Of a DNA stretch of 42,945 nt, positions 6,633 through 22,399 are shown piece by piece (the first letter of the stretch is position 1; the number at the start of each line of letters is the position of its first letter). The translations under genes were made by a program, and so were the position numbers. Location of the stretch: the NCBI GenBank assembly GCA_017623475.1, contig JAGAPC010000046.1:1-42945 (forward strand). Direction: 5' to 3'. The notes beneath the pieces were generated by a model. The model made no database searches. It was given only the letters and a program-made list of their open reading frames with translations, and was not told where the DNA came from. Source of the DNA: Clostridia bacterium (GTDB lineage: Bacteria; Bacillota; Clostridia; Oscillospirales; UBA644).

Positions 6633-7646
6633 TTATTCGACCAGACCGGAACGCTCGATACTCTGAATAAAGTACCGTTGTGCGAACAGGAACACGATCA
6701 GCAACGGCAGGATAATCAAAAGACAAGCCGTGTCGTTGATCGCCATCTGCTGGGCTTCGTCCTTGATGGAGGAGGCGACGTTTGCCGCCTTGTTGGCAAG
6801 GATCTCCAGCTTGGGCAACAGCATACTGTTGTAGGTGGTGTCGGTCCACTGCCAGGTAAAGCCGAACAGGAAGACGGTAATCATCATGTTTGCCGCGTTG
6901 GGAAGCATGATCGAGAAGAAGGTGCGGAAGAATCCGGCGCCGTCGATGTAGGCGGAATTTTCCAACTCCTTGGGAAGACCGCGGAAGAACTGACGCATCA
7001 GATAGATGTAAAGACCGTTCTTCAACCCCAGCCCCAAAGCAGACAAGATGACCAAAGGCCAATAGGTGTTGATCAAGCTCAAGTCCGTTCCAAGGAAATG
7101 GGAGAACCGGACGAACAAGGGCAGCTGAATGGTTTGGGCGGGGATCATCAAGGTCAGAAGGACCATAACGAACAACAGATCTCTGCCCTTGAACTTGAAC
7201 CGGGCAAAGCCGTATCCCACGACGCTTGCAACGAACAGCTGACAGGCCGCAACGATCAGGGACAGCAACGCCGTATTGATGAACGCCGTCCAATAGTTCA
7301 TATTGAGCATGGCACGTTCAATAAAGTACGTAGAGCCCTGGCGGGGAATGTACATTACCGTGTTATCCACGATGTCCTCGGTGCTGGAAAGAGCAACGAC
7401 GAACTTAACGAGGAAGGGGTACAGGATCATGTAAGAGATCCCAACGATGATTACGAACCGAAGGATGATCCATACCAATTTCCCTAACCCGTTCAGGTTC
7501 AGATTGCGGCGCTTCCAGGTTTCCCAATCCACCTTTTCCCGCGGAACCTTGTTGCCGGAGCGCATTTCCGCAAGGAAGGATTTCTTTCCGCCGGAGGGGA
7601 ACAGTTTTTCTTTGATTCCAAGAATAAATTCTTTGATCTTATCCAT
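6633..7646 (-). CDS. Carbohydrate ABC transporter permease, MalG type (second pair)
   Basis: A 337-residue inner permease of the carbohydrate uptake CUT1 class. After a long basic cytoplasmic N-terminus (about 60 residues) come six hydrophobic segments. The cytoplasmic EAA loop that docks the ATPase is LPKELENSAYIDGAGFFRTF, in the position expected for MalG-like proteins. AAAGGAGG precedes the ATG at 7646. It is the last gene of the eight-gene unit and lies 13 bases after the MalF-type partner. No ATP-binding subunit is encoded nearby, so a shared MsmX-like ATPase elsewhere is expected (inference). The substrate is probably an oligosaccharide. Confidence 0.9.
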   Translation of the reverse strand: MDKIKEFILGIKEKLFPSGGKKSFLAEMRSGNKVPREKVDWETWKRRNLNLNGLGKLVWIILRFVIIVGISYMILYPFLVKFVVALSSTEDIVDNTVMYIPRQGSTYFIERAMLNMNYWTAFINTALLSLIVAACQLFVASVVGYGFARFKFKGRDLLFVMVLLTLMIPAQTIQLPLFVRFSHFLGTDLSLINTYWPLVILSALGLGLKNGLYIYLMRQFFRGLPKELENSAYIDGAGFFRTFFSIMLPNAANMMITVFLFGFTWQWTDTTYNSMLLPKLEILANKAANVASSIKDEAQQMAINDTACLLIILPLLIVFLFAQRYFIQSIERSGLVE

Positions 7647-7659
7647 TTCGTTCCCTCCT

Positions 7660-8616
7660 TTAATCCTGATAGACGATCAGCTTGTTGACCAGCAGATACA
7701 CGACCCCGACGAAGAGAAGAAGCAGTACGGCGTACATCCAGGAGAACGCCGACGCCAGGGAGTAGGTGGCAACGTTCTCGTAATACTTGGCGATAAAGGA
7801 GATCGTTGCGTTATCCATGCTGGTAAACAGGTCGATAACGGTGTAGAGCAAATTGACCAAGATCAGGGGTGAGATCATGGGGAAGGAGATCTTCCAGAAC
7901 ACTTCCCAGCCGGTGGCGCCCTCTACCTTTGCGGCTTCGTACATATTGATGGAGATGGACTGCAAGCCGGAAAGGAAGATCAGCATCTGAACCCCGGAGG
8001 AGGTAATTACGGTGTAAAGTCCTTCGATTGCGCCGGAAACTACCGTTGCAAGCCCGGAGCTTCCCAGGGCAGAAAGGACCATCGCTTCAATCTCCATGGT
8101 GTTAAACCCGGCAACGCCGCCGCCTACGTCCAGCTTTTCCCCGGACTGGTATTGGTCCTGCAAGCTGGAAAGATTGTCAAAGTAGGTGACGATACCGGTG
8201 GACAAAACCACGGGGATGAAGAAGATCACGCGGGCGATGGATCTGCCGCGGAAGTTCTGATTCAGGATATTTGCCATAAAGAAGGCAAAGATCAGAATAA
8301 TGAAGATCTGCGGCAGCAACGCAATGGTCGAGGAATATACCGTCTGTAAAAAGTCGGTTTCCACGAACAGGGCGTCGTGATAATTGTCCCAGCCGACGTA
8401 GATGTTTTTCTCTCCGTAACGGCCGGCGTTTGCGGAAAAGGAATATTGGATCGATTGCACCAAAGAAGGAATATAGATCAGCGCTAATCCGAGAATGACC
8501 GGAGAGACGAAAACGTAGCCGAACAGACTCTTTTTACGCTCCAAAGAAAGCCGAGGCTTCTTCGCAGGCTTCTTTGCCGGTGCAGACACGGTTACTTCTG
8601 CAGTTTTTTCAGCCAT
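7660..8616 (-). CDS. Carbohydrate ABC transporter permease, MalF type (second pair)
   Basis: A 318-residue permease with a Lys/Pro/Ala-rich cytoplasmic N-terminus, first membrane helix near residues 33-52 and an EAA loop around NMYEAAKVEGATGWEVFWKI. Between the second and third core helices it carries an insertion rich in Gly and acidic residues (about 145-185), larger than in most CUT1 permeases. A TTG six bases upstream is in frame, but the ATG at 8616 is chosen because AGGAGGG then has a six-base gap. The start lies two bases after the stop of the DUF5696 gene. It would pair with the MalG-type permease just downstream. Confidence 0.88.
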   Translation of the reverse strand: MAEKTAEVTVSAPAKKPAKKPRLSLERKKSLFGYVFVSPVILGLALIYIPSLVQSIQYSFSANAGRYGEKNIYVGWDNYHDALFVETDFLQTVYSSTIALLPQIFIILIFAFFMANILNQNFRGRSIARVIFFIPVVLSTGIVTYFDNLSSLQDQYQSGEKLDVGGGVAGFNTMEIEAMVLSALGSSGLATVVSGAIEGLYTVITSSGVQMLIFLSGLQSISINMYEAAKVEGATGWEVFWKISFPMISPLILVNLLYTVIDLFTSMDNATISFIAKYYENVATYSLASAFSWMYAVLLLLFVGVVYLLVNKLIVYQD

Positions 8617-8618
8617 TT

Positions 8619-11600
8619 TCAACCCTCCTGATTCATAGTATCATCTGCGTTTTCCGTTACCGGGGGCGTGGGTGTGGGCTTTTCCTGGTAAGCGTTTCCG
8701 CTGATGACCTTTTTATATTCGTTCAAAGAAAGAACCAAATAAGATTTTGCCTTGATTTGGGTACGGTCGTTCAATTCCACGTCTTCGGAGTTGTAGTTGA
8801 CGAGAACGACCTTTTCGCCTCCGTACACGGTGGCGAAGACGCCGCCGCAGGAAATGCGCTTATGGGCAGGCTCGTAGGTGGGAAGCGTTCCGGGCTCCGA
8901 ACCTTCGGGCACGGGAACCTCCGTCCAGCCGATCAAGCCCTCCACGTCCAGCGCGTAGTACGCATCCACCGCCGTGTGATCGGTAATGGGCTCGTTGACC
9001 ACGTCGTTCAGAACGGAGGCGGCTTCCTTGTAGATCTTCACCGCACGCTCGATGGTGGAGGTGTAGTTCAAGGAGAAGTAATCGTAGAATTCCGTATAGT
9101 CAAACACGGAATCCTCCGCACCCATCCAACGGAAGGAGAAGGCAGAGCCGGTCTCCAACGCCAACAGAAGGGCGGTTTCGTAGTCGCCGGTCTGGTTGAG
9201 GGGTTCCATGGAATAGTTCACGTAACCGTGAAGCATGATCTGGGTAAAGGGAATGGCGGAGGAAGCCGTCAGATATTCGGAAGAACCGGTGGTCAATCCG
9301 AAGATATGAGAGGCGTAATTCCAGGTATAGAAATTGCCGGTGGAAACCATCACGTCGTATCCGTCAAAGGCTTGAAGAACCTTTACGTGATCCTTTTCTG
9401 CCCAGGCACGGGAGACGCCGTTGTTGGTTCTATAGTTGGAATGAAGCTCGTCGCCCAGATTTCCGAGGGCGATGGCGTTGTGATCGCCAAGCACCTTTTC
9501 AAAGGATGCCTTGTAGGTTTCCGCCATTTCCGCAGAAACGGCAGAAGAGACCAAAATCTTTTCGGTCAGATCGGAACGAAGGGAGCCGATGGCTTTCTTC
9601 CGTGCCACGATGGTGGCGGTAGAACGGTTCATCCGGCGCGCCGCATCCTGGGATTTGCTGAAGCCGTTTCCGGTAGAGGTAACGTGCAGGAATTCCACGG
9701 AGGGGAAGAAGCCCATGCCGTTTTCGTTGCAGTACTGAACCAGAGACGTCAGCTCTCCCTTCGAGCCCATGCAATCCAGCAATTCCAGATCCTTGGCGGC
9801 AACGTTGTTTTCCCCGCCGTTTGCCCAATAGGTATAACGGGAAACCACGTTGGTGATGCCGGATTCCTTCAGCTTGGTCAGAATCTCAAGGGCTTGCTCG
9901 TAGGTGGTTAAGGGAGTTTTGGTCTCCACGGGAATCCCGACGACCGTTTCGTTCATATCCACGCAGCCGATCAGATCGATGAAGAGGGGAAGCTCGGTTT
10001 CGTCCAGCTTCTCTTCCGGGAAAAGATCCTTGGAGATGAAATAATTTCTCAAATACGTTGCGTATTCCGAATAGGTCATACCGCCTTCGGTAAACAGGTA
10101 CTGAATCCGGTAAAGACCGGTTACCTCGTCCTTGGAAAGCAACAAACCGGAGCCGGTCTGATCTGCGGTAGCAACCAGAGAGGTAGCATAGGTACGGTAG
10201 TCCCGTTCCGAATAAACCACCTCGTAGTTGATGGTGGAAACGGGATAGGCAGCCCCCTGAATGGGACGTGCAACCACGCTTGCCTGCCCTGCTCCTTCTT
10301 CCATAATAGCAACGATACCGCCTCCGTTATAACGGGTGGCGTCGGAGGGGAATTCACCACGATCCAGGATCAAATAGGGTGCCAAAATCTGTTCGGCGTA
10401 GCTGGCGTCGTACTGCTTATTAAAGGAGCCGTCCGCGCCGTACACGCGCCCCTTGAAGATTTCGGTCTTCAGATTTCCCTTTACGGGAATCACGGCACCG
10501 GAGCCGTCGGGTACGATCATGTAGCCGTTGGGATAATTTGCTTTGGTAGCACCCAAGCCGCGGTACAGGTTAACGGTGTACAACCGCTGCTTGGTGGGAC
10601 CTAAGATCAGAGAAGAATCCATATTCACGGAAAGTCCGTTTTCATTCAACACCAAATCCACGGGAATGGTGTACAAAACGGAGCGTTCCGGACCTTGATA
10701 GTCTGCCTTTTCCATTTCCCGCTTTACGTCTTGGGCGGTAAAGCCGATGGTTTCCATCATGGTCTTGATTCTGCCTCTTTGCTTGGCGGAAACCTTATCG
10801 TAGGAAATGTACATGCTCATAACGTCGATGGTGGGGAAGGTGCTTTCAAAGCGTTCCTTATCCTCGATGCTGAGCTCCTGGCTCTTGTTTTCCGGGTTGG
10901 GGGTAATGTAACGGTAGCAGTCCTCAAGAACGTCGAGATACTTCAGATATTCCGCTTCGCTCAAGGTTCCGTCGAAATACTTTTCTTCCAACCCCTTCAG
11001 GATCACGTCTTCGTAGGTGTCCTTGGTAATGACCGGGGGGAACAGATCCTTATCCGGGTCGTTTCCGATGGTATAGATGATACGGATGGAGTTGTCGCCG
11101 GTCTTCAGCACGTAAAACGCGCCGTCGCCGTCCTCGTAACAGTTATCGTAGAAGTTGAAGGAATACCGTTTTCCCGAAGAATCGTACGCCTCAACCGAAA
11201 GAGGAGATGCAATATTGGATTGCTGGCTGGCGGTCAGAGAGGTGTCCGGATCGCGGTCCGGGTTGGAGTGATAGACGAATCCGGTATCCTTATCCAAAAC
11301 CGCAATATCGGTGGTTTCGAAATCGATATACAGCTCGTAGCCGTCGCTTTTCGCCACCAGGTACATATCGGTAAGACCGGTGGTACCGCCCTTACTCTTG
11401 CTGACCTTGGAGTAGCCGGAGGGAGCTTTTCCGTAAAGCTTCTCCCCTTCTTCATCCAAAATCTGGGGAGCGTAGAGGATTTCCACGCCCTCTTCCGACA
11501 GAAGTCCGTTGATGAATTCCTGACGGGCGGCGTCGGTCACTTCGTTGGATTCCAGAGAATCCAACCCGCAAGCGGAAAGTGCCAGCGCAACGAGCAGTAA

Positions 11601-11642
11601 GCTCGAAATTAAGAGGATCCATTTTTTCATCATTGATTTCAT
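8619..11642 (-). CDS. DUF5696-type large lipoprotein, possible glycan-active TIM-barrel protein
   Basis: A 1007-residue lipoprotein. The signal peptide ends in the lipobox LSAC near residues 21-24, so the mature protein is lipid-anchored outside the membrane. The sequence matches my memory of the Firmicutes DUF5696 family. The N-terminal half (about 60-500) is beta-rich and reminiscent of glycosidase beta-sandwich domains. The second half (about 545-880) alternates strands and helices like a TIM barrel, with acidic positions such as LGDELHSNY and SVEFLH. The C-terminus is a beta domain, then a Pro/Thr linker. AAGGAGG is flush against an ATG at 11651, so the ATG at 11642 (nine-base gap) is preferred. 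No catalytic role is proven; a binding protein or hydrolase are both possible. Confidence 0.8.
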   Translation of the reverse strand: MKSMMKKWILLISSLLLVALALSACGLDSLESNEVTDAARQEFINGLLSEEGVEILYAPQILDEEGEKLYGKAPSGYSKVSKSKGGTTGLTDMYLVAKSDGYELYIDFETTDIAVLDKDTGFVYHSNPDRDPDTSLTASQQSNIASPLSVEAYDSSGKRYSFNFYDNCYEDGDGAFYVLKTGDNSIRIIYTIGNDPDKDLFPPVITKDTYEDVILKGLEEKYFDGTLSEAEYLKYLDVLEDCYRYITPNPENKSQELSIEDKERFESTFPTIDVMSMYISYDKVSAKQRGRIKTMMETIGFTAQDVKREMEKADYQGPERSVLYTIPVDLVLNENGLSVNMDSSLILGPTKQRLYTVNLYRGLGATKANYPNGYMIVPDGSGAVIPVKGNLKTEIFKGRVYGADGSFNKQYDASYAEQILAPYLILDRGEFPSDATRYNGGGIVAIMEEGAGQASVVARPIQGAAYPVSTINYEVVYSERDYRTYATSLVATADQTGSGLLLSKDEVTGLYRIQYLFTEGGMTYSEYATYLRNYFISKDLFPEEKLDETELPLFIDLIGCVDMNETVVGIPVETKTPLTTYEQALEILTKLKESGITNVVSRYTYWANGGENNVAAKDLELLDCMGSKGELTSLVQYCNENGMGFFPSVEFLHVTSTGNGFSKSQDAARRMNRSTATIVARKKAIGSLRSDLTEKILVSSAVSAEMAETYKASFEKVLGDHNAIALGNLGDELHSNYRTNNGVSRAWAEKDHVKVLQAFDGYDVMVSTGNFYTWNYASHIFGLTTGSSEYLTASSAIPFTQIMLHGYVNYSMEPLNQTGDYETALLLALETGSAFSFRWMGAEDSVFDYTEFYDYFSLNYTSTIERAVKIYKEAASVLNDVVNEPITDHTAVDAYYALDVEGLIGWTEVPVPEGSEPGTLPTYEPAHKRISCGGVFATVYGGEKVVLVNYNSEDVELNDRTQIKAKSYLVLSLNEYKKVISGNAYQEKPTPTPPVTENADDTMNQEG

Positions 11643-11656
11643 GTCCTTCATCCTCC

Positions 11657-12391
11657 TTACTCATTCAGACGGAAAATAATTTCCGTTCCGAGTTCAATAA
11701 AGAAGTTGGAAACCTGTTGGAGCAGGAAGAAGATCAAAATTGCAACGAAGGCAATCACCGCCATACCAAGGATGGTCAGAACTGCCGTTCCGACGCCCTT
11801 CCCTACGGAATATTGGTGAACGGTAATCATGGCAAGGAAGACGTAAGCGTAACCCCAGATCATGCCCAGGCTTCCGATAAAGGCAAAAATGCTTGCCTCC
11901 GAAGAAGAGAGGAAGTGGCTGAGGGGAATCTGGATCAGATTACAAATGGTAATGGGCAAAATTGCGTAGCACGTTACCATGAATATGTCGGACAGCTTTC
12001 CGTCGCCGTCCATCAGCGAAGAGAAGCACCAATTGGAAACCGCCCACAGTACGAAGGGAAGAATTGCGGTCATCAAGCGAACGGGAACGTTCAACGCCAA
12101 CTGCGCCGCCTGATTTGCAAACAGATACCCGAGGGTCTGGAAGCGAATCAGATCCACCAGCGCGTAGATAATCAGCCATAAGACACCGCCTGCAACGGAG
12201 CGACGCTTCGGATCGTTTTTCAGATCGAAGAATCCGTCGAAGGGATGGAAGAGAATGTAGAAGGCGTAACCCATGCGCTTGACCGTGGTTTTCGTTCCTT
12301 GCCACAGCTTGGGCAGGAATCCTTTAAAGGCCGTCCACAGATCCGATAAGATCTTGGAAACGTTGATGGATTTCTTTTCAGCCTTTTCCAT
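11657..12391 (-). CDS. Yip1-family integral membrane protein
   Basis: A 244-residue polytopic protein with a hydrophilic N-terminus of about 45 residues and five likely membrane helices (about 68-90, 100-125, 135-160, 170-195, 205-230). The segment HPFDGFFDLKNDPKR and the following helices match the bacterial Yip1/YIPF-like domain family. Bacterial members have no established function. Its ATG overlaps the last base of the beta-propeller gene's stop, and AAAGGAGATGAG within that gene's end provides the ribosome site, so the two products are probably made in fixed ratio. By context it may be an assembly or scaffold partner of the transporter (inference). Confidence 0.82.
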   Translation of the reverse strand: MEKAEKKSINVSKILSDLWTAFKGFLPKLWQGTKTTVKRMGYAFYILFHPFDGFFDLKNDPKRRSVAGGVLWLIIYALVDLIRFQTLGYLFANQAAQLALNVPVRLMTAILPFVLWAVSNWCFSSLMDGDGKLSDIFMVTCYAILPITICNLIQIPLSHFLSSSEASIFAFIGSLGMIWGYAYVFLAMITVHQYSVGKGVGTAVLTILGMAVIAFVAILIFFLLQQVSNFFIELGTEIIFRLNE

Positions 12392-14106
12392 TAGTTCTCA
12401 TCTCCTTTCGCTTGATTGTATTTTTCAGCGGCGGCGGCTTGCCGTGCCAAAGCGGCGGCGAGCTTCTGCGCCTTTTCTTTTTTGCGCTTTTTCTGTTTTT
12501 TAACGATACTCAAAACGATGTAGCCCACGATCAAAAGGGCAATTGCACCGAAGATCAGACCGAAATATTTCTCCAGCTCGTTGGTACGGATGGCAACGTA
12601 AGCGGTGGAATAGTTGGTCTTTTCGTTGGCGCGGTCGTAGTAGAACATTGCGTTTTCGTAATGCTCCAGCGCCGTCATTCCGTCGGCGTCAACCTCATCG
12701 TCCAGAAGCTTGAACGCCAGCTGCATTTCCGAGTTCCCCAAGCTGATATTGGCAATATACATATTGGAGTTATAGCTCAACACGTCCTGCCACAGGGGGA
12801 TGGATTCTGCCCAAAGTCCTTCGGCGGTCGCCGCAGCGGCGCGGTTGATGGACAAAACGTAGGGCGTTGCTTTAAATACCGTAATGGTGTTGTTCGAGGT
12901 ATCTGCCACGTAAACGTAGTCCCCGTTGATCTCCAGGGCAGACGCCATCTGGAAGGTTCCGATCGAAGTACCGGAGCCACCGCAGATGTAGAGCAGATTT
13001 CCGTCATTATCATAGGTAGAGAACCGACCGGTGGTCTGATCCAAAATCGTGTAACGTCCGCTTTCGTCATCCACGGCAATATCCACGATCTTGGGAGAGT
13101 AATCCTTCACTCCGGGCCAGGTCAGATCGCCCATGGGAGCCGAAAGACCCTTGCGGCGGAGCATATCCGTTCCGTCGGCAGACAGCTTCCGCACCGGAGC
13201 GTAAGTAGTAGAGGTCGATTTTGCGGAAAGCGCCTTGACGGCGGCTGAATCCAGGGCGGAAATGGTGGTGTAAATAAATCCGCGGCGGTCAATGGTCAAG
13301 CTGCTGTATTCGGTGGGGGTGTAGGTCACCATCTGAGCCAACTGCTCTTCGGTGGCGAAGTTCCGCCAGATCCGGTCGCCCAGGCTGACGATAACGTCCG
13401 GCGTACCGAAGAAGGCGTTGAACTGACCTTCGCTGGTAATCTGCACGATTCCGCGGTTGATGCCGTTACAAATAACCTGGACGTCACCCACGTTATCAAC
13501 CACCAGGCGGGTGGGCTTGAACAGGTAATTGTCGCCGAGGACGGGGATTTTGATCGCCTGTAACACCTTGGAGACCTTACCGTTGATATCGCAGGCAAGG
13601 ATCCGCTGGTTTTCCGTATCGGAGATGTAAATCGTACCGTCGTCGGTAACGAAGATCCCCTGGGGAGCGTTGAGGGCGTATTTGTTGGAGGAGATCACAA
13701 CCTCCTGCTGTTCGCCGTCCTCTCCTTCCACGACCTCGGAGTTCAGCGCCAATTCCGGAATATCTCCGGTCAGGGTGCGGATGGTGGAAACCGGCTGATA
13801 CCGTTCATCCAAAACGTAAACGGAGTTTCCTTTAGAATCCAGAACGTACAGATAGCCGTTCTGAAAGCACAGATCCGCCGGCACGAACGCAGTCGTAACC
13901 GTAGCGTTGGGTACGATGTCCACCACGGAAATGTGCTTTTCTACCGTAAAGGAAAGAGGAGCTGCGGCGTCAACGCCATCTACATTATAAAAATAAGAGT
14001 TGTTGACGTTGTTGATGGGGAGCGCAGAAGCCGAAAGCACCGATCCTAAAACGACGGCGAAGGCAAGTACCGTAACAATGAGGCTTTTGATAAACTTTTG
14101 TTTCAT
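12391..14106 (-). CDS. Membrane-anchored extracellular NHL-type beta-propeller protein
   Basis: A 571-residue protein. Residues 1-28 are a signal peptide ending in ASALP. Residues about 45-410 contain repeated strand patterns such as ADLCFQNGYLYVLDSKGNSV, PQGIFVTDDGTIYISDTENQ and GDYVYVADTSNN, typical of six-bladed NHL propellers. A helical segment (about 411-505) follows, resembling a short TPR-like region, then a membrane helix (about 507-528) and a strongly basic Lys/Ala-rich cytoplasmic tail. GAAGGAGAG precedes the ATG. NHL propellers usually bind proteins, nucleic acids or sugars; here an extracellular glycan-binding or transporter-associated role is inferred from the operon only. Confidence 0.87.
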   Translation of the reverse strand: MKQKFIKSLIVTVLAFAVVLGSVLSASALPINNVNNSYFYNVDGVDAAAPLSFTVEKHISVVDIVPNATVTTAFVPADLCFQNGYLYVLDSKGNSVYVLDERYQPVSTIRTLTGDIPELALNSEVVEGEDGEQQEVVISSNKYALNAPQGIFVTDDGTIYISDTENQRILACDINGKVSKVLQAIKIPVLGDNYLFKPTRLVVDNVGDVQVICNGINRGIVQITSEGQFNAFFGTPDVIVSLGDRIWRNFATEEQLAQMVTYTPTEYSSLTIDRRGFIYTTISALDSAAVKALSAKSTSTTYAPVRKLSADGTDMLRRKGLSAPMGDLTWPGVKDYSPKIVDIAVDDESGRYTILDQTTGRFSTYDNDGNLLYICGGSGTSIGTFQMASALEINGDYVYVADTSNNTITVFKATPYVLSINRAAAATAEGLWAESIPLWQDVLSYNSNMYIANISLGNSEMQLAFKLLDDEVDADGMTALEHYENAMFYYDRANEKTNYSTAYVAIRTNELEKYFGLIFGAIALLIVGYIVLSIVKKQKKRKKEKAQKLAAALARQAAAAEKYNQAKGDEN

Positions 14107-14123
14107 TGTAATACTCTCCTTCC

Positions 14124-15080
14124 TTAGTCTTTCATACCGGACGTTGCCATCGTCTCGATGATATTACTTTGCGTGATCAAGAAGGTCAGAATCGGAACGA
14201 TCATCATCAGCACGCTGGTGGCGGTAGCAACGCCGGCGCGGGCAAGACCTTCCGAGGTGATCTGACTCAAGGCGTAGTTCAGAGTCTTCAATTCTTCCCG
14301 ATAAATATAGATCGAAGCACCCTGGTTCCAATAATCCTTGACCGAGAAGACGATCAACGTCATCCAGGCGGGCTTCATGTTGGGCATCAGGATATTCCAG
14401 AAGATCCGGAAGTCGCCGGCGCCGTCAATGCGGGCAGCCTCCAACACCGAATCGGGGAACGGATCCACGAATCCTCGGATCAGATACAGAGAGAAGGAAG
14501 ATCCGAGGGCTGGAATGAAATAAACGAGCCAGGTATCTACGAAGCCCAGGGCGGAAATAATCAGATAGGTAGCAAAGCCCGCCGCGGGCGCGGAGATCAT
14601 CAAGCTGGTGGTAATCAGTTTGTTGATTGCCTTCTTCCCCTTAAACTGCCATTTGGACAGGGGGTACGCCGCCATAGAGGCGGACACGATCCGCAGGAAG
14701 GTGGCAACGACGGTGATGAACAGCGTATTGAACAAATACCGGGAGAAGGGAATCATGGTATTGGACAAAATCGTGAACATATCCCGATAGTTGGAGACCG
14801 TGGGGTTCTTAACGATCAGGTTGGGGGGGAACAGCCACAGCTCGTGCAGGGGCTTGAAGGAGTTGGAAATGGCGTAAACCATGGGGAATACCATGATTAC
14901 ACCCACGGCAAGAAGGAACAGAATCATCGCAATATCGCCGCCGGCGGACCGGTTTACGCGGGTTTTGATGAGTTTTTTCTTCTTATAATAAATAAGTCTG
15001 CCTTCTTCGTCGTATTTGGGACGTTTCCGGAAGAATCCGACGGTTTCTTGTTTCGGAAGTTTCGCTTTTTTCGTTATCAT
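14124..15080 (-). CDS. Carbohydrate ABC transporter permease, MalG type (first pair)
   Basis: A 318-residue CUT1 permease with about six membrane helices and a MalG-like EAA loop (FPDSVLEAARIDGAGDFRIF). An in-frame GTG at 15098 would place the ribosome site inside the coding sequence, so the ATG at 15080, nine bases after GGAGG, is taken as the start. The ribosome site lies just past the stop of the upstream permease at 15095. It pairs with that MalF-type permease and presumably with the binding protein upstream. Confidence 0.92.
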   Translation of the reverse strand: MITKKAKLPKQETVGFFRKRPKYDEEGRLIYYKKKKLIKTRVNRSAGGDIAMILFLLAVGVIMVFPMVYAISNSFKPLHELWLFPPNLIVKNPTVSNYRDMFTILSNTMIPFSRYLFNTLFITVVATFLRIVSASMAAYPLSKWQFKGKKAINKLITTSLMISAPAAGFATYLIISALGFVDTWLVYFIPALGSSFSLYLIRGFVDPFPDSVLEAARIDGAGDFRIFWNILMPNMKPAWMTLIVFSVKDYWNQGASIYIYREELKTLNYALSQITSEGLARAGVATATSVLMMIVPILTFLITQSNIIETMATSGMKD

Positions 15081-15094
15081 TTCGTTCAACCTCC

Positions 15095-16000
15095 TCACTT
15101 ACCGATTCTGCCGATGATGAACCGAATGGCCTGGTTTGCAACGTAGGTCATAACGAACATAACCATCGCGATGGCGCAGGCGTAACCCATTTCGTAACGG
15201 GCTCCGCCGTAGTCATTCAGGTGCAGAGACAGGGTGTACAATGTGTAGTCCTGGGTGGGGCTTCCGAAAATGGTGGAGCCGACGCTGAAGGCACCGGTAA
15301 TGGCAAGCACCGCACCGAACAGCAGCTGACCGCGCATCTGGGGAAGGGTGATGAAATACAATTCCTGCCAACGGTTCTTGATTCCGTCCACCGCACCTGC
15401 CTCGTACAGAGATTTATCCACCGTCTGAAGACCGGCGATAAAGGTCAGGAAGGAGGTACCGATGGAAGACCACAACAGGATGATGATACAAACGGGCCAC
15501 ATCACGTCGGTGTCGATGGTCCAAAGGATCGGCTCGTTGATCAGGCCGAATTCCATCAGCCAGGCGTTGATATAACCGTATTTATCGTTGGAGAACAAGA
15601 GAGACCAAACGATATCCAGACCACCCGAAAGCGCGGGGGCGTAGAACAGAAGGGTCATAACCGACCGGGGCTTGGGCGGAATTTCGTTAATCAGCCACGC
15701 GAAGGCGAAGCACAGGATATATCCACCGGGACCGGTAATCGCGGCAAGGATCAGCGTGTTCTGAACGGCGGTGGGGAACAAGGTATCGTTCAGAAACAGT
15801 CTCATATAGTTTTCCAGACCGACGAAATCGGGGAATTCCAACATGTTGAAGTTGGTCAGGCTGACCAAGATCGAAACCAATACCGGAAGAACGGTAAAGA
15901 TTACGAACGCCAAAAGGAAAGGACCGAGGAAGAACGCAAGACTGAAAAACCGATTCCGATTCTGCCGTCTCAAGCTTGCGGATTTTACTGATTTTTTCAT
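15095..16000 (-). CDS. Carbohydrate ABC transporter permease, MalF type (first pair)
   Basis: A 301-residue CUT1 permease with a basic N-terminus, first helix near residues 18-40 (FFLGPFLLAFVIFTVLPVLV) and an EAA loop KSLYEAGAVDGIKNRWQELY. A TTG at 16021 is in frame but would translate through AAAGGAGG, so the ATG at 16000 is chosen. It begins 17 bases after the stop of the binding-protein gene. The tight spacing supports cotranscription as one importer. Confidence 0.92.
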   Translation of the reverse strand: MKKSVKSASLRRQNRNRFFSLAFFLGPFLLAFVIFTVLPVLVSILVSLTNFNMLEFPDFVGLENYMRLFLNDTLFPTAVQNTLILAAITGPGGYILCFAFAWLINEIPPKPRSVMTLLFYAPALSGGLDIVWSLLFSNDKYGYINAWLMEFGLINEPILWTIDTDVMWPVCIIILLWSSIGTSFLTFIAGLQTVDKSLYEAGAVDGIKNRWQELYFITLPQMRGQLLFGAVLAITGAFSVGSTIFGSPTQDYTLYTLSLHLNDYGGARYEMGYACAIAMVMFVMTYVANQAIRFIIGRIGK

Positions 16001-16017
16001 GCTGTTTCCTCCTTTCC

Positions 16018-19000
16018 TCAATTTGCGGCTTCTGCAGAGTTTGCAGTGCTCGTATTGGTGTCATAAGGGAGACCTAACTGTTCTCTCTTATACTTGATTT
16101 CTTTGTTGATTTCCTGAATGTATTTCAGGAGGGTTGCTCTTGCGTCGGAGTATTCGTTGATAACTTCGTTGTAAGCAAATCCGTAATAACGGGTGAAATA
16201 GTAGCCGCCGACCTCTTCCTCGTATCCAACGGTGTTTTCCCATTGTTCCATGATGGTCGCCAATTCCTTGGTGCTCCAGGGAAGGCGCTGCGCCGCCGCT
16301 ACGTTTGCGGTATTATAACGGGCGGCAATCCCGAGGGTTGCTTCCAATTCAATACCGTAATCGTACTGAACGTCTTCGCTGACCCACCATTGCATCCACG
16401 CCCAGCAGGCGTTGGCGTAATCGTCCCCTTGGCTGACGCCCCGGTTCAACAGGGCGATGGAGGAAACCGTTGCAACGGTCTTGGTGTTGATGACGGGATT
16501 TCCTTCCTCGTCAAGCACCACGTTACCGTTTTCGTCCGTTACCTCCGTGCCGGGGATGGTGGTAAAGGTCCAGGTGCCCTTGATTTCGGGGGCGGTGATC
16601 GCCAGGGTACTGTAGAAGGTCAAAGTCTGCATTCCGATGGGCATTTCGCCGAAACGGAAGCGGTTCTGGAAGTTGTAGGATTTGGGACAGTTATAAGTAA
16701 TGAAATAGTCGGTTGCGGTAATGAAGGATTGGATTGCGATTTCGGAATCCAGGTTGATCCGCTGACCGTCGTCCCGATACAGGGCTCCGCCGTTCTGATA
16801 GAGAATGGTCTGGAAATCCGGGGGTGCAAAGTCCATGTACCGTTTCTTCAAAACGGCGATCATGTCGTAAACCTCCGTCCAGGTTTTGGGAACTTCGATG
16901 CCGAGATCCGCCAGAACGTCTTCCCGGTAGAACAGAACGTCGAAGGATTGCTTTTCGGGAAGCCCGTAGATGTTGCTGACGATGCCCTGAGAGGGATCGC
17001 TTTCGTCTTTATAAACCTCCAGCGTAATGGGGGTGAAGGCAGAAGATTTGAACCAGGTTTTAACCTCCGCAAAGCCCGGAATGTCTTGATATCCCTCCTG
17101 GGCGCTTTCCAGGGTGAAGGAATCGAAATTATTCAACGCAACCAAGGCGTTACGGGATGCGTAGTTAATAATATCCGCAGAGCCGAGACCCATGACGATG
17201 TCCGGTCCCTTTCCTGCAAATACGGAAGGAAGCAACGCGCCGCCGGGAACCAACGCGATGTCGATCCCGATCTGATACTGATTGACGAAGGAACGCTCAA
17301 TCAAACGCTGCTTGACGTCGGCACGCTCCTTACCGGTGGTTGCCCAAATGGAAATTGTGGTGTCGAATTCCTGATCGCTGGTCGATCCGATGGCGTTGGT
17401 GTCCGAGGTAAAGGAAGCGGCAAACATAGCGATGTTGTGCCAAATATTTTCGAACACGCCCACGGAGCCGGAGCCTGCGTCGTAGGAAGGCTCAGCCACC
17501 AGGATATAGTCCAATTCCAACGGCTGATTCCGCATGGTGCTCAACCAGGAACCCAGATTGGTGATTTGGTTTTTAAAGTTACTGAAATAGGAAGGTATAT
17601 TGTCCGGCTCTTCCGCCATGTCGTACAGAACGTCGATGACGTTGTAGATGATGGCAGTCTGCTGTCCGTCTCCGCCCAGGATTTCGATCAGGTTGTTGTA
17701 GATACTCGTCAGAATATCGCCCTGCGCCTTCAGGTCGGAAATGACGTCGGGAATTTCTTCATCCAGCTTATAATCCCGGTATTCGTCGGGGGACGCACCG
17801 GTAATCTGCATGATTTTACGGTAGTCGTTGTTCAGCTTGGAAATGACCGTATCCACGGCGTTGATATACTCGCTCAATTCCCCGGTGGTGGCAGTGATGC
17901 GAATAACGTTCTCGCCTTCCGTGAACTTGAACAGCAATTCGTTGCCGTAATCGTCTTCCGGAGTGACCATCGCCCAATCCGAGGAATAGGGGAAGCGGAT
18001 CCGAGACGCTTCGGTGACCGGAGTTTCTCCGTTGACGGTGATCTGCCGGCTGGAGAAGGTTCCGGATACGATATTCTGACGTGCCCGAAGGACGATCTTA
18101 TACAGACCGGTTTTCGGCACGCTTACCTTATATTCCACGAACTGCCCGGAGGTGTTCCAGTTTTCGCCGCCGACCACGTTGTACTTCAGTACGGTGGACG
18201 ACTTGGGCTGGGTTGCGGCGGAAGAACGGTCATAGGTCGAATAGACGGAGGTGGAGGACTTATCGTAGGGATATTCCGCCTGAACCTTGGCGACCAGCTG
18301 ATCGCCCTCGATCCGATATTCCCCGTTCTGCGCCAAGAACTCCGTATAAGAGACCGAATCCTGTACGCCGTACAAACGCAGCTTGGAGAATGCGGCAGGC
18401 TCTCTGGAGGAGGTCAAACGAATGACGTTGACGCCCTTTTCCAGATAAAACTGCAACGCTCCGTCGTAAGAACCGGTGGAATCCTTGAAATAAGAATTCT
18501 CGATCCATCTCCGTTCCTCCTTGGAGTTCAAACGGATCTGGTTGCCGTCCAGATCTTCCGGATAGTAGCCGGAATAGATTCCGTCGGCATCGGGACCGGT
18601 AACCTTGCTCCAATCCACGTCGTCAACGAAGAGACGGTCCAACGCCGCCGTCTTGGCTTCGGAATAAGGACTTTCCCCGTTGATGGTAATGGAACGCTCG
18701 ATGGCAATTCCCTTCCCTTCCATGGGGTAGTAGTCACAACCGAGACCATACAACCCGGTGGTCGGAACCTCTACGGTAAATTCCACGTAGCCGCCTTCCT
18801 GGGTCACAAGGACGTTGTCTTTCCCTTCGTAGGTTTTGATTTCAACGCTCTCCCCTGCGGTGTACTTGGTAACGTCGATGTCGATGACGTCATCCGAAGA
18901 GGTCGCACGGGCGTGAGCCTGCAGATATTCGCCGTAAGACCCTGCCTTAAAAACGGCAACGAAGGGAATGTTGGAATCCAACTCCGTCAGCGCTTTCGCG

Positions 19001-19074
19001 GAAGAGGTCAATGCAAACATCTGGACCGCCATCACAGCAATCAGTATTACTGCGATAACTTTGTTTTTGCGCAC
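16018..19074 (-). CDS. Very large extracellular solute-binding protein with N-terminal carbohydrate-binding-like modules
   Basis: A 1018-residue secreted protein starting at GTG (19074) after AAGGAAGG. Residues 1-28 are a signal peptide ending SAKA; no lipobox cysteine is present. Two related beta-sandwich modules follow (about 90-235 and 275-400), each with GYVEFTVEVPTTGLY/GQFVEYKVSVPKTGLY, an ITVNGE turn and KGVNVIRLT/EGENVIRIT, a pattern common in CBM6/35-like modules. A helical segment (about 410-530) leads to a family 1 solute-binding domain (about 580-1000) with KGPDIVMGLGSAD, GIYGLPEKQS-like and DVLFYREDVLADLGI features. Typical sugar-binding proteins have about 420-450 residues. It should capture an oligosaccharide for the downstream permeases. 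How it stays at the cell surface without a lipid is unclear. Confidence 0.9.
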   Translation of the reverse strand: MRKNKVIAVILIAVMAVQMFALTSSAKALTELDSNIPFVAVFKAGSYGEYLQAHARATSSDDVIDIDVTKYTAGESVEIKTYEGKDNVLVTQEGGYVEFTVEVPTTGLYGLGCDYYPMEGKGIAIERSITINGESPYSEAKTAALDRLFVDDVDWSKVTGPDADGIYSGYYPEDLDGNQIRLNSKEERRWIENSYFKDSTGSYDGALQFYLEKGVNVIRLTSSREPAAFSKLRLYGVQDSVSYTEFLAQNGEYRIEGDQLVAKVQAEYPYDKSSTSVYSTYDRSSAATQPKSSTVLKYNVVGGENWNTSGQFVEYKVSVPKTGLYKIVLRARQNIVSGTFSSRQITVNGETPVTEASRIRFPYSSDWAMVTPEDDYGNELLFKFTEGENVIRITATTGELSEYINAVDTVISKLNNDYRKIMQITGASPDEYRDYKLDEEIPDVISDLKAQGDILTSIYNNLIEILGGDGQQTAIIYNVIDVLYDMAEEPDNIPSYFSNFKNQITNLGSWLSTMRNQPLELDYILVAEPSYDAGSGSVGVFENIWHNIAMFAASFTSDTNAIGSTSDQEFDTTISIWATTGKERADVKQRLIERSFVNQYQIGIDIALVPGGALLPSVFAGKGPDIVMGLGSADIINYASRNALVALNNFDSFTLESAQEGYQDIPGFAEVKTWFKSSAFTPITLEVYKDESDPSQGIVSNIYGLPEKQSFDVLFYREDVLADLGIEVPKTWTEVYDMIAVLKKRYMDFAPPDFQTILYQNGGALYRDDGQRINLDSEIAIQSFITATDYFITYNCPKSYNFQNRFRFGEMPIGMQTLTFYSTLAITAPEIKGTWTFTTIPGTEVTDENGNVVLDEEGNPVINTKTVATVSSIALLNRGVSQGDDYANACWAWMQWWVSEDVQYDYGIELEATLGIAARYNTANVAAAQRLPWSTKELATIMEQWENTVGYEEEVGGYYFTRYYGFAYNEVINEYSDARATLLKYIQEINKEIKYKREQLGLPYDTNTSTANSAEAAN

Positions 19075-19117
19075 TGCAAAACACCTTCCTTTTGGTTCAA
19101 ATATTGCCTTGGAGACG

Positions 19118-19149
19118 AAAAAGCGCCGGCGAAGGGAATTCGCTCGCGC
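19118..19149 (-). promoter_or_regulatory. Possible attenuator hairpin in the ABC-locus leader
   Basis: In the about 120-base leader, minus-strand GCGAA/TTCGC (19139-19143 with 19129-19133) stacks on GCGC/GCGC (19146-19149 with 19123-19126) across a 2x2 internal loop, followed directly by TTTTT (19122-19118). This is the shape of an intrinsic terminator placed before the first gene. A 23-codon frame (ATG at 19168, TGA at 19097-19099) spans the hairpin but has no ribosome site. Regulation by attenuation is an inference. Confidence 0.4.
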
Positions 19150-19202
19150 TCTCGGTATCTCCGTTCATTACGCAAAAAGAACAAATCTCTTTTTACTCGT
19201 AT

Positions 19203-19231
19203 ATTATAATATAAATAACGCGAATTGTCAA
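19203..19231 (-). promoter_or_regulatory. Consensus sigma-A promoter of the eight-gene ABC locus
   Basis: Minus-strand TTGACA (19226-19231), a 17-base spacer and TATAAT (19203-19208): a perfect consensus. Transcription would begin near 19195, giving a leader of about 120 bases before the GTG at 19074. No other convincing promoter is seen within the eight genes, whose gaps are all short. Confidence 0.88.
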
Positions 19232-19629: not shown

Positions 19630-20592
19630 TTACTTTACGACAGGCTCCCGTTTCTCAAACCCCTCCACGTATTCGTGCTTCACGAGAACGGCATGCATGG
19701 CGATCCGCACGTCGCTGTTGCTTCCTTTACAGGTGGATAAGGTAAGAATCCGATCGTCGGCGGTAAATTGAAAGGACTCAAAGGCAGAAATGGTATTTTT
19801 GGACTGCAGCGTGTTCAAAAAATTCACGTAATCCGTATCGTTGGAAAAATACGTGCGGATATAATTGAACGCCGTCGTCGTCTCGTACCAGGCAAAAACC
19901 TGCCAGACGGTGCGCTCCGTGGGGGTATTGATGTAGATGAAATGGTTGTTTCCGTCCTGCTGCCACTTGGTTTTGGAATTCAGATACCGCAATCCGCCGA
20001 ACATCAGATAACTGCGGGCGTGACCGTAAATGATGGTATTGCGATTATCAAGCAGATCCTTCATATTGCAACGGTAATCCACGTAGATCCAGCCGTTGCT
20101 GTTATTGCTTTTATCAAAGGATTTGTTGAGGTAATAATCGTTATTCGTGCTCTGAACCACCTGCCGGTTAAAGGGCAGCCCCTTGACGTCGGTGGTGGTC
20201 GGCCAATACATCCACGCCACCGTATCCGGATTCTGCTCCTTCAAGGAGTCAAAACCGACGGTCTGCAGAAAAGGAAGGGCATCCACGTCGATGTCTTCCG
20301 GCGCGATCTGCTGCCACTGTTTCGTCGGGTCGGTGGGCGTAAGGACCGAATCCTCATCCGCGTCGGAGGGAAGGGGAACGAACACGTCTCTCCCGATCTG
20401 TCCTGCCTCGGACTGCCCCGCAAGATCCAAAACCGACTGCTCAAACAACCCGAGAAGGCTGAAGGAAAACACGAAAGCGCACAATCCGAGAAGCACCAAA
20501 GAGAGAGGAGAATATTTTACGTAGGCTTTCCTCTCTTTTTTTGCCTTCCCCGATTGCACCTTATCGTCTTTGGGAGTGCTTTTTTCCGCCAT
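19630..20592 (-). CDS. srtB: Class B sortase
   Basis: A 320-residue membrane-anchored transpeptidase that cleaves sorting signals and links surface proteins to peptidoglycan or pilin partners. One N-terminal membrane helix (about residues 33-53) follows a basic cytoplasmic start. The catalytic histidine is in IIYGHARSYLMFG, the cysteine in LTLSTCKGS and the arginine in SDVRIAMHAVL; the spacing and the long helix-containing insertion before the cysteine match class B. The open frame extends 12 codons upstream, but the ATG at 20592 is chosen because GAAGGAGGGG precedes it. It sits 36 bases after the transketolase C-subunit stop, with no separate promoter seen, so it may be cotranscribed. CTCC/GGAG pairing could partly hide its ribosome site. 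Confidence 0.93.
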   Translation of the reverse strand: MAEKSTPKDDKVQSGKAKKERKAYVKYSPLSLVLLGLCAFVFSFSLLGLFEQSVLDLAGQSEAGQIGRDVFVPLPSDADEDSVLTPTDPTKQWQQIAPEDIDVDALPFLQTVGFDSLKEQNPDTVAWMYWPTTTDVKGLPFNRQVVQSTNNDYYLNKSFDKSNNSNGWIYVDYRCNMKDLLDNRNTIIYGHARSYLMFGGLRYLNSKTKWQQDGNNHFIYINTPTERTVWQVFAWYETTTAFNYIRTYFSNDTDYVNFLNTLQSKNTISAFESFQFTADDRILTLSTCKGSNSDVRIAMHAVLVKHEYVEGFEKREPVVK

Positions 20593-20628
20593 AAAACCCC
20601 TCCTTCGGGGAGATCGTAAACCCTTCAA

Positions 20629-21597
20629 TTACAGCTGGGACAACTTTTCGGGCGCTTTGACCGCAAGGATCTTACGGCAGACGTTTTCCGCGGTAAATCC
20701 GTATTTTTCCATCAGCTGTGCGGGGGTTCCGGACTTGCCGAAGGCGTCCTCCACGCCGATACGGATCACGGACGGACCGTTGGTTGCAACGTTGCATCCG
20801 CAGGCCGCTTCACAGACGGCAGAACCGAATCCGCCGTTGATGTTGTGATCTTCAAAGGTAACGATCAATCCGGTATCTCTCAAAGCGTCTTCGATGGCTT
20901 TGTTATCGACAGGTTTGACCGAAGGCATATCGACGATTCGGCAGGTAAGACCGAATTTTTCCAACATTTCCTTTACTTGCGCCGTCAATTCGTGGAAATG
21001 ACCGCAGAAGATCAGCGTCACGTCGTCTCCTTCCGCGATGCGGTAAGACTGACCGGCGGTATAAGTAATGCTTCCTTCCTCGTAAACCACGGGAACTGCC
21101 AGCCGTCCGCCCCGAATATAGACCGGTCCTTCGTGCTCGATGGCAAAGCGAACCGCCGCCTTCATCTGAACCGCGTCGGAGGGATTGATAACCACCATTC
21201 CGGGAATGGAACGCATCAACGCCAGATCCTCCAGGCATTGATGGGTTGCACCGTCTTCCCCGACGGTCAGCCCGGAGTGCGTACCCACCACCTTGACGTT
21301 CAAATGGGGATAGGCAACGCCGTTGCGGATCTGCTCAAAGGCACGTCCGGCGGCAAACATGGAAAAGGAGGAGGCAAAAACGGTATTTCCGCAGGCGGCA
21401 AGCCCGGCAGCAACGCCGATCATATTCCCCTCCGCAATTCCACAGTCGATGAACCGATCGGGATATTTCTTTTTGAAGGTAATGGTTTTCGTAGCTTTCG
21501 CCAGATCTGCGTCCAAAACGTAAAAATCGGGATATTCCTCCGCCAGCGCTACGAGACCTTCCCCGTAAGCGTCGCGGGTCGCTTTCAAATCAGCCAT
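20629..21597 (-). CDS. Transketolase, C-terminal subunit
   Basis: A 322-residue protein carrying the pyrimidine-binding and C-terminal domains of a split transketolase. It shows the catalytic glutamate in DCGIAEGNMIGVAAGLA, the SSFSMFAAGRAFEQIRN segment and THSGLTVGEDGATHQ. Together with the N-terminal subunit it transfers two-carbon units between sugar phosphates in the pentose phosphate pathway. Its ATG at 21597 overlaps the end of the N-subunit gene by eight bases and AAGGAG lies within that gene, so the two chains are translationally coupled. A xylulose-phosphate or related ketose role is general; substrate preference cannot be read here. Confidence 0.94.
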   Translation of the reverse strand: MADLKATRDAYGEGLVALAEEYPDFYVLDADLAKATKTITFKKKYPDRFIDCGIAEGNMIGVAAGLAACGNTVFASSFSMFAAGRAFEQIRNGVAYPHLNVKVVGTHSGLTVGEDGATHQCLEDLALMRSIPGMVVINPSDAVQMKAAVRFAIEHEGPVYIRGGRLAVPVVYEEGSITYTAGQSYRIAEGDDVTLIFCGHFHELTAQVKEMLEKFGLTCRIVDMPSVKPVDNKAIEDALRDTGLIVTFEDHNINGGFGSAVCEAACGCNVATNGPSVIRIGVEDAFGKSGTPAQLMEKYGFTAENVCRKILAVKAPEKLSQL

Positions 21598-22399
21598 GTT
21601 GCTCCAACTCCTTCATCGCAATTTCATAATCCTCCTGCTTGGGGGCGTTTCCGTGCCAATCACAGACGTTTTCCATGTAAGAAACGCCCTTACCCTTGAC
21701 GGTATGCGCCACGATGCAGGTGGGCTTTCCCTTGGTTTCTCTGGCTTTTTTCAGGGCGGCACGGATCTCGTCGTAGTTATGTCCGTCGATTTCCACCACT
21801 TCCAGACCAAAGGCGCGCATTTTATCGGGAACCGGATCGGACCCCATGACCTCACTGGTCTTACCGTCGATCTGAAGGCCGTTCAGATCCACGAAAACGC
21901 ACAGGTTGTCCAGCTTATAGTGGGCAGAGAACATCATCGCCTCCCACACCTGTCCTTCTTCGATTTCCCCATCGCCCAAAACCGCGTAAACACGGTAATC
22001 CTTGTTGGTCAGCTTTGCGGAAAGAGCCATACCGCAGGCGGCAGAAATGCCCTGACCCAACGAGCCGGAGGACATATCCACGCCGGGGGTGGATTTCATG
22101 CTGGGATGCCCCTCCAGGTAGCTGTCGATCTTACGAAGGGTCAGCATATCCTCCTTGGGGAAATACCCTTTGACCGCCAGGGCGGCGTACAAGGCGGGGG
22201 CGGCGTGTCCCTTGGACAAAACGAACCGATCCCGAAGAGGATGTTTCGGTTCGGCAGGATTCACGTTCATCTCCTCGTTGTAAAGCACCGCCAAAATATC
22301 GGTGCAGGACAACGATCCACCGGGATGACCGCTTTTTGCGTGATACAGAGACGTCAGGATCAGCTTACGCATCTCCAACGCCATGCTTTCGGTGTTCAT
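21590..22399 (-). CDS. Transketolase, N-terminal subunit
   Basis: A 269-residue thiamine-diphosphate-binding subunit. It contains the GHPGGSLS segment, the SKGHAAPALYAAL segment, MSSGSLGQGISAACGMA and the cofactor/Mg motif GDGEIEEGQVWEA followed by FVDLNGLQIDG. Length is standard for split transketolases of Clostridia and archaea. AAGGAGAA lies eight bases before the ATG at 22399. It is the first gene of the transketolase-sortase unit, behind a promoter with an overlapping palindrome. Confidence 0.94.
   Translation of the reverse strand: MNTESMALEMRKLILTSLYHAKSGHPGGSLSCTDILAVLYNEEMNVNPAEPKHPLRDRFVLSKGHAAPALYAALAVKGYFPKEDMLTLRKIDSYLEGHPSMKSTPGVDMSSGSLGQGISAACGMALSAKLTNKDYRVYAVLGDGEIEEGQVWEAMMFSAHYKLDNLCVFVDLNGLQIDGKTSEVMGSDPVPDKMRAFGLEVVEIDGHNYDEIRAALKKARETKGKPTCIVAHTVKGKGVSYMENVCDWHGNAPKQEDYEIAMKELEQHG

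Follow-up and report, generated by a model that had tools for sequence, protein, structure and literature searches.

The eight-gene locus described here probably encodes one conserved ABC importer of glycans, of the CUT1 type, whose products would be organized into two modules and may form a joint complex. The locus lies in the window, i.e. the whole analysed stretch of 42,945 nucleotides from a Clostridia bacterium. Module A would consist of a giant binding protein with CBM-like domains (SBP-L) and the permeases F1 and G1, while module B would consist of a second permease pair, F2 and G2, a membrane-anchored scaffold made of an NHL propeller and a Yip1 protein, and a DUF5696 lipoprotein with the fold of GH129, which is most likely a non-cleaving glycan binder. 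Small binding lipoproteins (SBP-S), whose genes adjoin the module in Paenibacillus and are found away from the locus in the genome of the window, would hand sugar to F2/G2, and a single ATPase of the UgpC/MsmK type would probably power both pairs. In the family to which the window belongs, several SBP-S proteins may be served by one module B, which would thereby work as a hub.

ABC sugar importers normally have one SBP and one permease pair. The system described here has two pairs, which over much of Bacillota stay linked to a propeller-Yip1 scaffold and a putative pseudo-glycosidase, and in one genus (g2, a sister genus) about 60 binding proteins seem to deliver to its four permeases. More tentatively, the locus may represent an undescribed Bacillota-wide class of importers, in which two coupled CUT1 pairs are combined with an NHL-Yip1 scaffold and a GH129-fold lipoprotein without catalysis into a hub for dozens of interchangeable SBPs, and stand in for the range of substrate-specific importers that other gut bacteria have; we regard this wider reading as possible rather than probable. 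The protein families themselves are known, and a literature search, outside of which most subscription papers lay, returned no description of their combination, of its conservation or of the SBP expansion, which make up the new part as far as the literature searched goes. If true, the proposal would assign functions to DUF5696 and bacterial NHL-Yip1 proteins and alter the way in which sugar uptake is predicted for Paenibacillus and for uncultured gut Clostridia; the sharing of one transporter by many binding proteins would also become testable.

Layout and conservation of the locus

All eight open reading frames listed in the initial annotation were found on the minus strand (Table 1), and Pfam bore out their families, with four BPD_transp_1 permeases, NHL, Yip1 and DUF5696 (419 bits), except for the giant SBP, which had no significant match in Pfam. 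The intergenic gaps are, in order, -4, -4, 17, -1, 5, -4 and 13 bases, in line with the overlapping or closely spaced start and stop codons described earlier. The perfect promoter that had been reported was also recovered, matching the σ70 consensus at 12 of 12 positions, which would be expected by chance about 0.004 times per 15 kb scanned, given the base composition. Such a 12/12 promoter is located 5' of the operon in 10 of the 13 same-family loci tested, i.e. the window and nine further loci (L064, L067, L068, L071, L073, L074, L075, L077 and L101), and its conservation is compatible with strong and steady expression of the operon. An Rfam search gave no match within the locus. Upstream, at 19630-22399 of the window, a sortase and a two-part transketolase are encoded in the same direction as the operon; both are likewise present at the same-family locus L067, and the sortase likewise at L078.

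Table 1. Features of the locus (window positions) and the SBP-S arrays of sister genus g2 (positions within the named loci)
Feature	Position	Strand	Remarks
SBP-L giant SBP	19074-16018	minus	1018 aa
F1 MalF-type permease	16021-15095	minus	EAA loop
G1 MalG-type permease	15098-14124	minus	EAA loop
NHL beta-propeller protein	14106-12391	minus	signal peptide, propeller, TPR-like helices, C-terminal transmembrane helix
Yip1-domain membrane protein	12391-11657	minus	~5 transmembrane helices; NHL-fused in many relatives
DUF5696 lipoprotein	11651-8619	minus	1010 aa; GH129-like fold, catalytic carboxylates not conserved
F2 second MalF-type permease	8622-7660	minus	EAA loop; 294-472 aa among relatives
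G2 second MalG-type permease	7646-6633	minus	EAA-type loop
Consensus sigma-70 promoter TTGACA-17-TATAAT	19231-19203	minus	12/12 match
Intrinsic terminator, strong	6621-6593	minus	13-pair stem, T-rich tail
SBP-S arrays, sister genus g2	L194:5190-18175; L195:2758-10192; L196:10028-14308; L197:4294-19098		

It had been suggested that the eight genes constitute one system, an idea that would fail if the accessory genes were rarely found beside such permeases. The opposite was observed, as the order SBP-F1-G1-NHL-Yip1-DUF5696-F2-G2 was found again in about 100 loci across Bacillota. DUF5696 is present in 41 of 59 relatives, and HMM maps of 40 of the relatives' loci, covering up to 20 kb around DUF5696, have the same order wherever the contig allows, one of them (L082) being a distant paralogue without the operon; in 12 loci that seemingly lack Yip1, it makes up the C-terminal portion of a fused NHL gene. 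Furthermore, scanning 84,980 species genomes with 11 DUF5696 sequences revealed at least 576 relatives, from which 78 loci in named genomes were kept, including those of Paenibacillus, Cohnella, Alkalihalobacillus, Lachnospiraceae and Oscillospiraceae. The order was found with separate NHL and Yip1 genes in 33 of these and with the fusion in 31; in the remainder, L170 is permuted, and most others are cut by a contig end or hold the second half only. Within one sample of 398 Bacillota genomes, 37 have strong DUF5696 matches (E < 1e-100); these 37 are also matched by the NHL-Yip1 profile, which finds one fragment besides. The conservation of the order together with this 37/37 co-occurrence leads us to reject a chance adjacency of the eight genes, and along with the NHL-Yip1 fusions it bears out the suggestion of one system. 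As a minor observation, at L209:7862-10721 (genome G209) G1 gave two separate matches about 1.6 kb apart, its frame possibly being interrupted by an insertion in the permease gene.

Transport components and the two proposed modules

The EAA loop, at which the ATPase docks, is kept in all four permeases, with conservation of 0.87-1.0 for its Glu and 1.0 for its Gly (92-103 sequences, both pairs). Outside the locus, on contig C1, the genome of the window has a lone gene beside proC for a UgpC/MsmK-type ATPase of 373 aa, which scores 492 bits (NF008653, cut-off 432), so that the missing ATPase, which the initial annotation had held to be unusual, is an ordinary arrangement. Besides those of the locus, the permeases of this genome comprise an Opp pair and a single SsuC-like protein, and the four of the locus are therefore the only CUT1 permeases in the assembly. 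As the genome thus holds MalF/MalG-type pairs with EAA loops, a sugar-type SBP and a UgpC-type ATPase, the features by which CUT1 systems are recognized, the locus is predicted to encode a CUT1-type importer, both permease pairs of which are probably driven by the one shared ATPase.

SBP-L is composed of two CBM-like beta domains, a helical linker and a family-1 sugar SBP domain (approximately residues 560-1000), and it carries a Sec signal and no lipobox. When compared with solved sugar SBPs, its profile matched Lin1841 (E 9e-30, profile positions 571-875), and its CBM-like region matched 5x7g. The NHL protein is recognized by PF01436 (42 bits) and by Foldseek, which matched it to NHL domains (E 1e-16), and the Yip1 Pfam domain was detected above the cut-off (E 2e-14). 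In a model of a natural NHL-Yip1 fusion (pLDDT 82.6), the NHL part comprises a signal peptide, the propeller, TPR-like helices and a single transmembrane helix, and the Yip1 part has five helices. The two proteins may serve as a membrane scaffold.

Pairwise distance correlations are 0.90-0.94 among NHL, DUF5696, F2 and G2 and 0.93 for F1 versus G1, and they are lower (0.82-0.90) between the two groups. Moreover, the order is permuted in L170, and module B occurs alone with SBP-S, as in genome G120, where a unit of NHL-Yip1, DUF5696, F2, G2 and a small SBP is encoded twice within 38 kb without F1/G1. Taken together, these data show two putative sub-modules, i.e. giant SBP-F1-G1 and NHL-Yip1-DUF5696-F2-G2. 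The two module copies of G120 are complete and lie on its contig C7 (L204-L206); this genome and G139 may hold many copies of the DUF5696 module, with 11 and 22 first-look candidates, respectively. Three small open reading frames located 5' of half-systems at L142:4363-6715 and L158:1-2193 are weakly similar to SBP-L (15-27 bits), and are perhaps a split SBP-L or an unrelated set of CBM type.

Small binding proteins and probable substrates

The SBP-S family was defined from the Paenibacillus neighbours of the locus. Its members lie inside the fetched flanks of 46 of the 78 named-genome loci, as against a single locus out of 40 in the window's taxonomic order, and are encoded beside F2/G2 in stand-alone half-systems that already hold DUF5696. 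A search of the genome of the window with SBP_bac_1 gave a sole separate match, a lipoprotein on contig C45, which matches the SBP-S family (E 4e-14). The initial annotation, which counted one binding protein, is hence right for the locus and wrong for the genome.

In eight genomes of g2, the SBP-S profile has 42-65 matches per genome, in tandem arrays of up to eight genes in a row that have no adjoining permeases and that adjoin GH29, GH38 and GH106 genes. The BPD permeases of all kinds number 8-14 per g2 genome where counted. In G011 all eight permeases were assigned, four to the hub locus, two to Opp and two to Pot, and no CUT1 permeases beyond the four of the locus were found in two incomplete metagenome-assembled genomes, those of the window (G000; 1.57 Mb, 84% complete, with the window on contig C10) and G011 (95% complete). 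The 42-65 SBP-S proteins against four CUT1 permeases, with every permease checked in one genome (G011), suggest that many SBP-S proteins dock on one shared transporter in g2; alternatively, they could bind at the surface and play no part in transport.

Outside the window's taxonomic order, the CAZyme genes around the locus include GH113, GH26, GH38, GH76, GH29, GH43 and GH53, and CAZymes for mannan, fucose and rhamnose adjoin the modules or SBP arrays; none was found as a neighbour of the locus in the window. Because of the flanking GH26, GH113, GH38 and GH76 genes, mannans are likely a frequent, though not the sole, substrate in the relatives, along with other glycans. These neighbours and the predicted folds support the role in handling surface glycans that had been proposed for the locus. 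The Thermoanaerobacter beta-1,2-mannan clusters were considered as a lead and set aside, since they are a different system, with one ordinary transporter and its own ATPases.

The DUF5696 protein, alternative readings and known systems

The AlphaFold model of DUF5696 (pLDDT 80.7) matches GH129 over its whole length, with Z scores of 30.5 for NagBb and 30.4 for ZgGH129, and matches GH101 more weakly (Z ~19). At the level of sequence profiles the similarity to GH129/GH101 is weak (E 2e-11), the Pfam GH129 model did not match the protein of the window, for which only DUF5696 was reported at E up to 1, and even with a larger DUF5696 profile the alignment to GH129 sequences stopped short of the catalytic strands. 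A fold shared throughout would agree with DUF5696 being a new GH129-related family of active alpha-glycosidases, which would trim surface glycan ahead of uptake. NagBb uses Asp435, ZgGH129 needs Asp486, Glu517 and Glu531, and active GH129-like enzymes already vary in their catalytic residues (PMC5698469). When DUF5696 is mapped to D435/D486 by strand order and spacing rather than by superposition with GH129, the nucleophile position falls on alignment column 731, after strand beta-4, which is D, T, S, N or E, with D in 32 of 105 sequences. Against an enzyme, not a single D or E is conserved at the barrel strand ends among these 105 sequences, column 773, the expected acid/base site, is Asn in 95 of them, and the protein of the window has Asn731 and Asn773. 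Arg748 is another conserved residue. Since a conserved carboxylate pair is lacking despite the whole GH129 fold, DUF5696 is probably a non-catalytic glycan binder, although some members may still be active; the processing of glycan suggested earlier is doubtful, and an active family appears unlikely. The same loss of catalysis would suit a binding subunit of F2/G2 that takes the place of an SBP, as the initial annotation had suggested, and DUF5696 is a lipoprotein in the window and is always encoded directly before F2. Nevertheless, a true small SBP is found near most loci outside the window's taxonomic order, no recognisable lipobox is present in 68 of 117 homologues, and F2/G2 have a small SBP lipoprotein beside them where module B stands alone. 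We therefore consider it improbable that DUF5696 is the binding subunit.

As for the locus as a whole, the occurrence of module B alone in G120, the permutation in L170 and the better correlation of distances within modules would also be expected of two ordinary sugar importers that share an operon by chance, with their own SBPs, loosely related helpers and no joint mechanism. A conserved neighbourhood alone does not imply one complex; yet the eight-gene order is kept in Paenibacillaceae, Lachnospiraceae, Oscillospiraceae and clostridial MAGs, over which genes adjacent by accident would have been separated, and NHL-Yip1 and DUF5696 keep company in 37/37 genomes. Such a pair of importers seems to us somewhat unlikely. 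We know of no importer with an NHL propeller or a Yip1 protein as a part, and the SBP arrays lie apart from permeases, as might be expected if the system were a glycan sensor or a surface adhesion apparatus, with the arrays as adhesins or sensory ligands. This is very improbable, as the EAA loop in all four permeases, the matching UgpC ATPase and CAZyme neighbours that fit nutrition all speak for import.

A two-module importer would resemble the MsmEFG and MsmK/UgpC-type CUT1 importers of Bacillota in having an SBP with a domain akin to family-1 sugar SBPs (e.g. Lin1841), an EAA-loop MalF/MalG-type pair, and an ATPase encoded elsewhere and probably shared; it differs in having two pairs per operon, a giant CBM-like SBP and the conserved NHL-Yip1 and DUF5696 proteins. 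Likewise, DUF5696 shares the fold of GH129 (NagBb, ZgGH129) and GH101 from the N-terminal sandwich to the C-terminal beta domain, and differs in having neither a Pfam GH129 match nor a conserved catalytic pair, and in being a lipoprotein tied to a transporter. Yip1-domain proteins have reportedly been found near ABC transporters in bacteriocin clusters, which are alike in placing a Yip1-family membrane protein near such a transporter; those clusters are for export, and an NHL propeller, an SBP or DUF5696 is not known there. In oligopeptide importers, one OppBCDF is common to several OppA proteins, so that many binding proteins likewise meet few permeases, whereas the system described here is of the carbohydrate class, with about 60 SBPs per genome in sister genus g2 and with accessory subunits.
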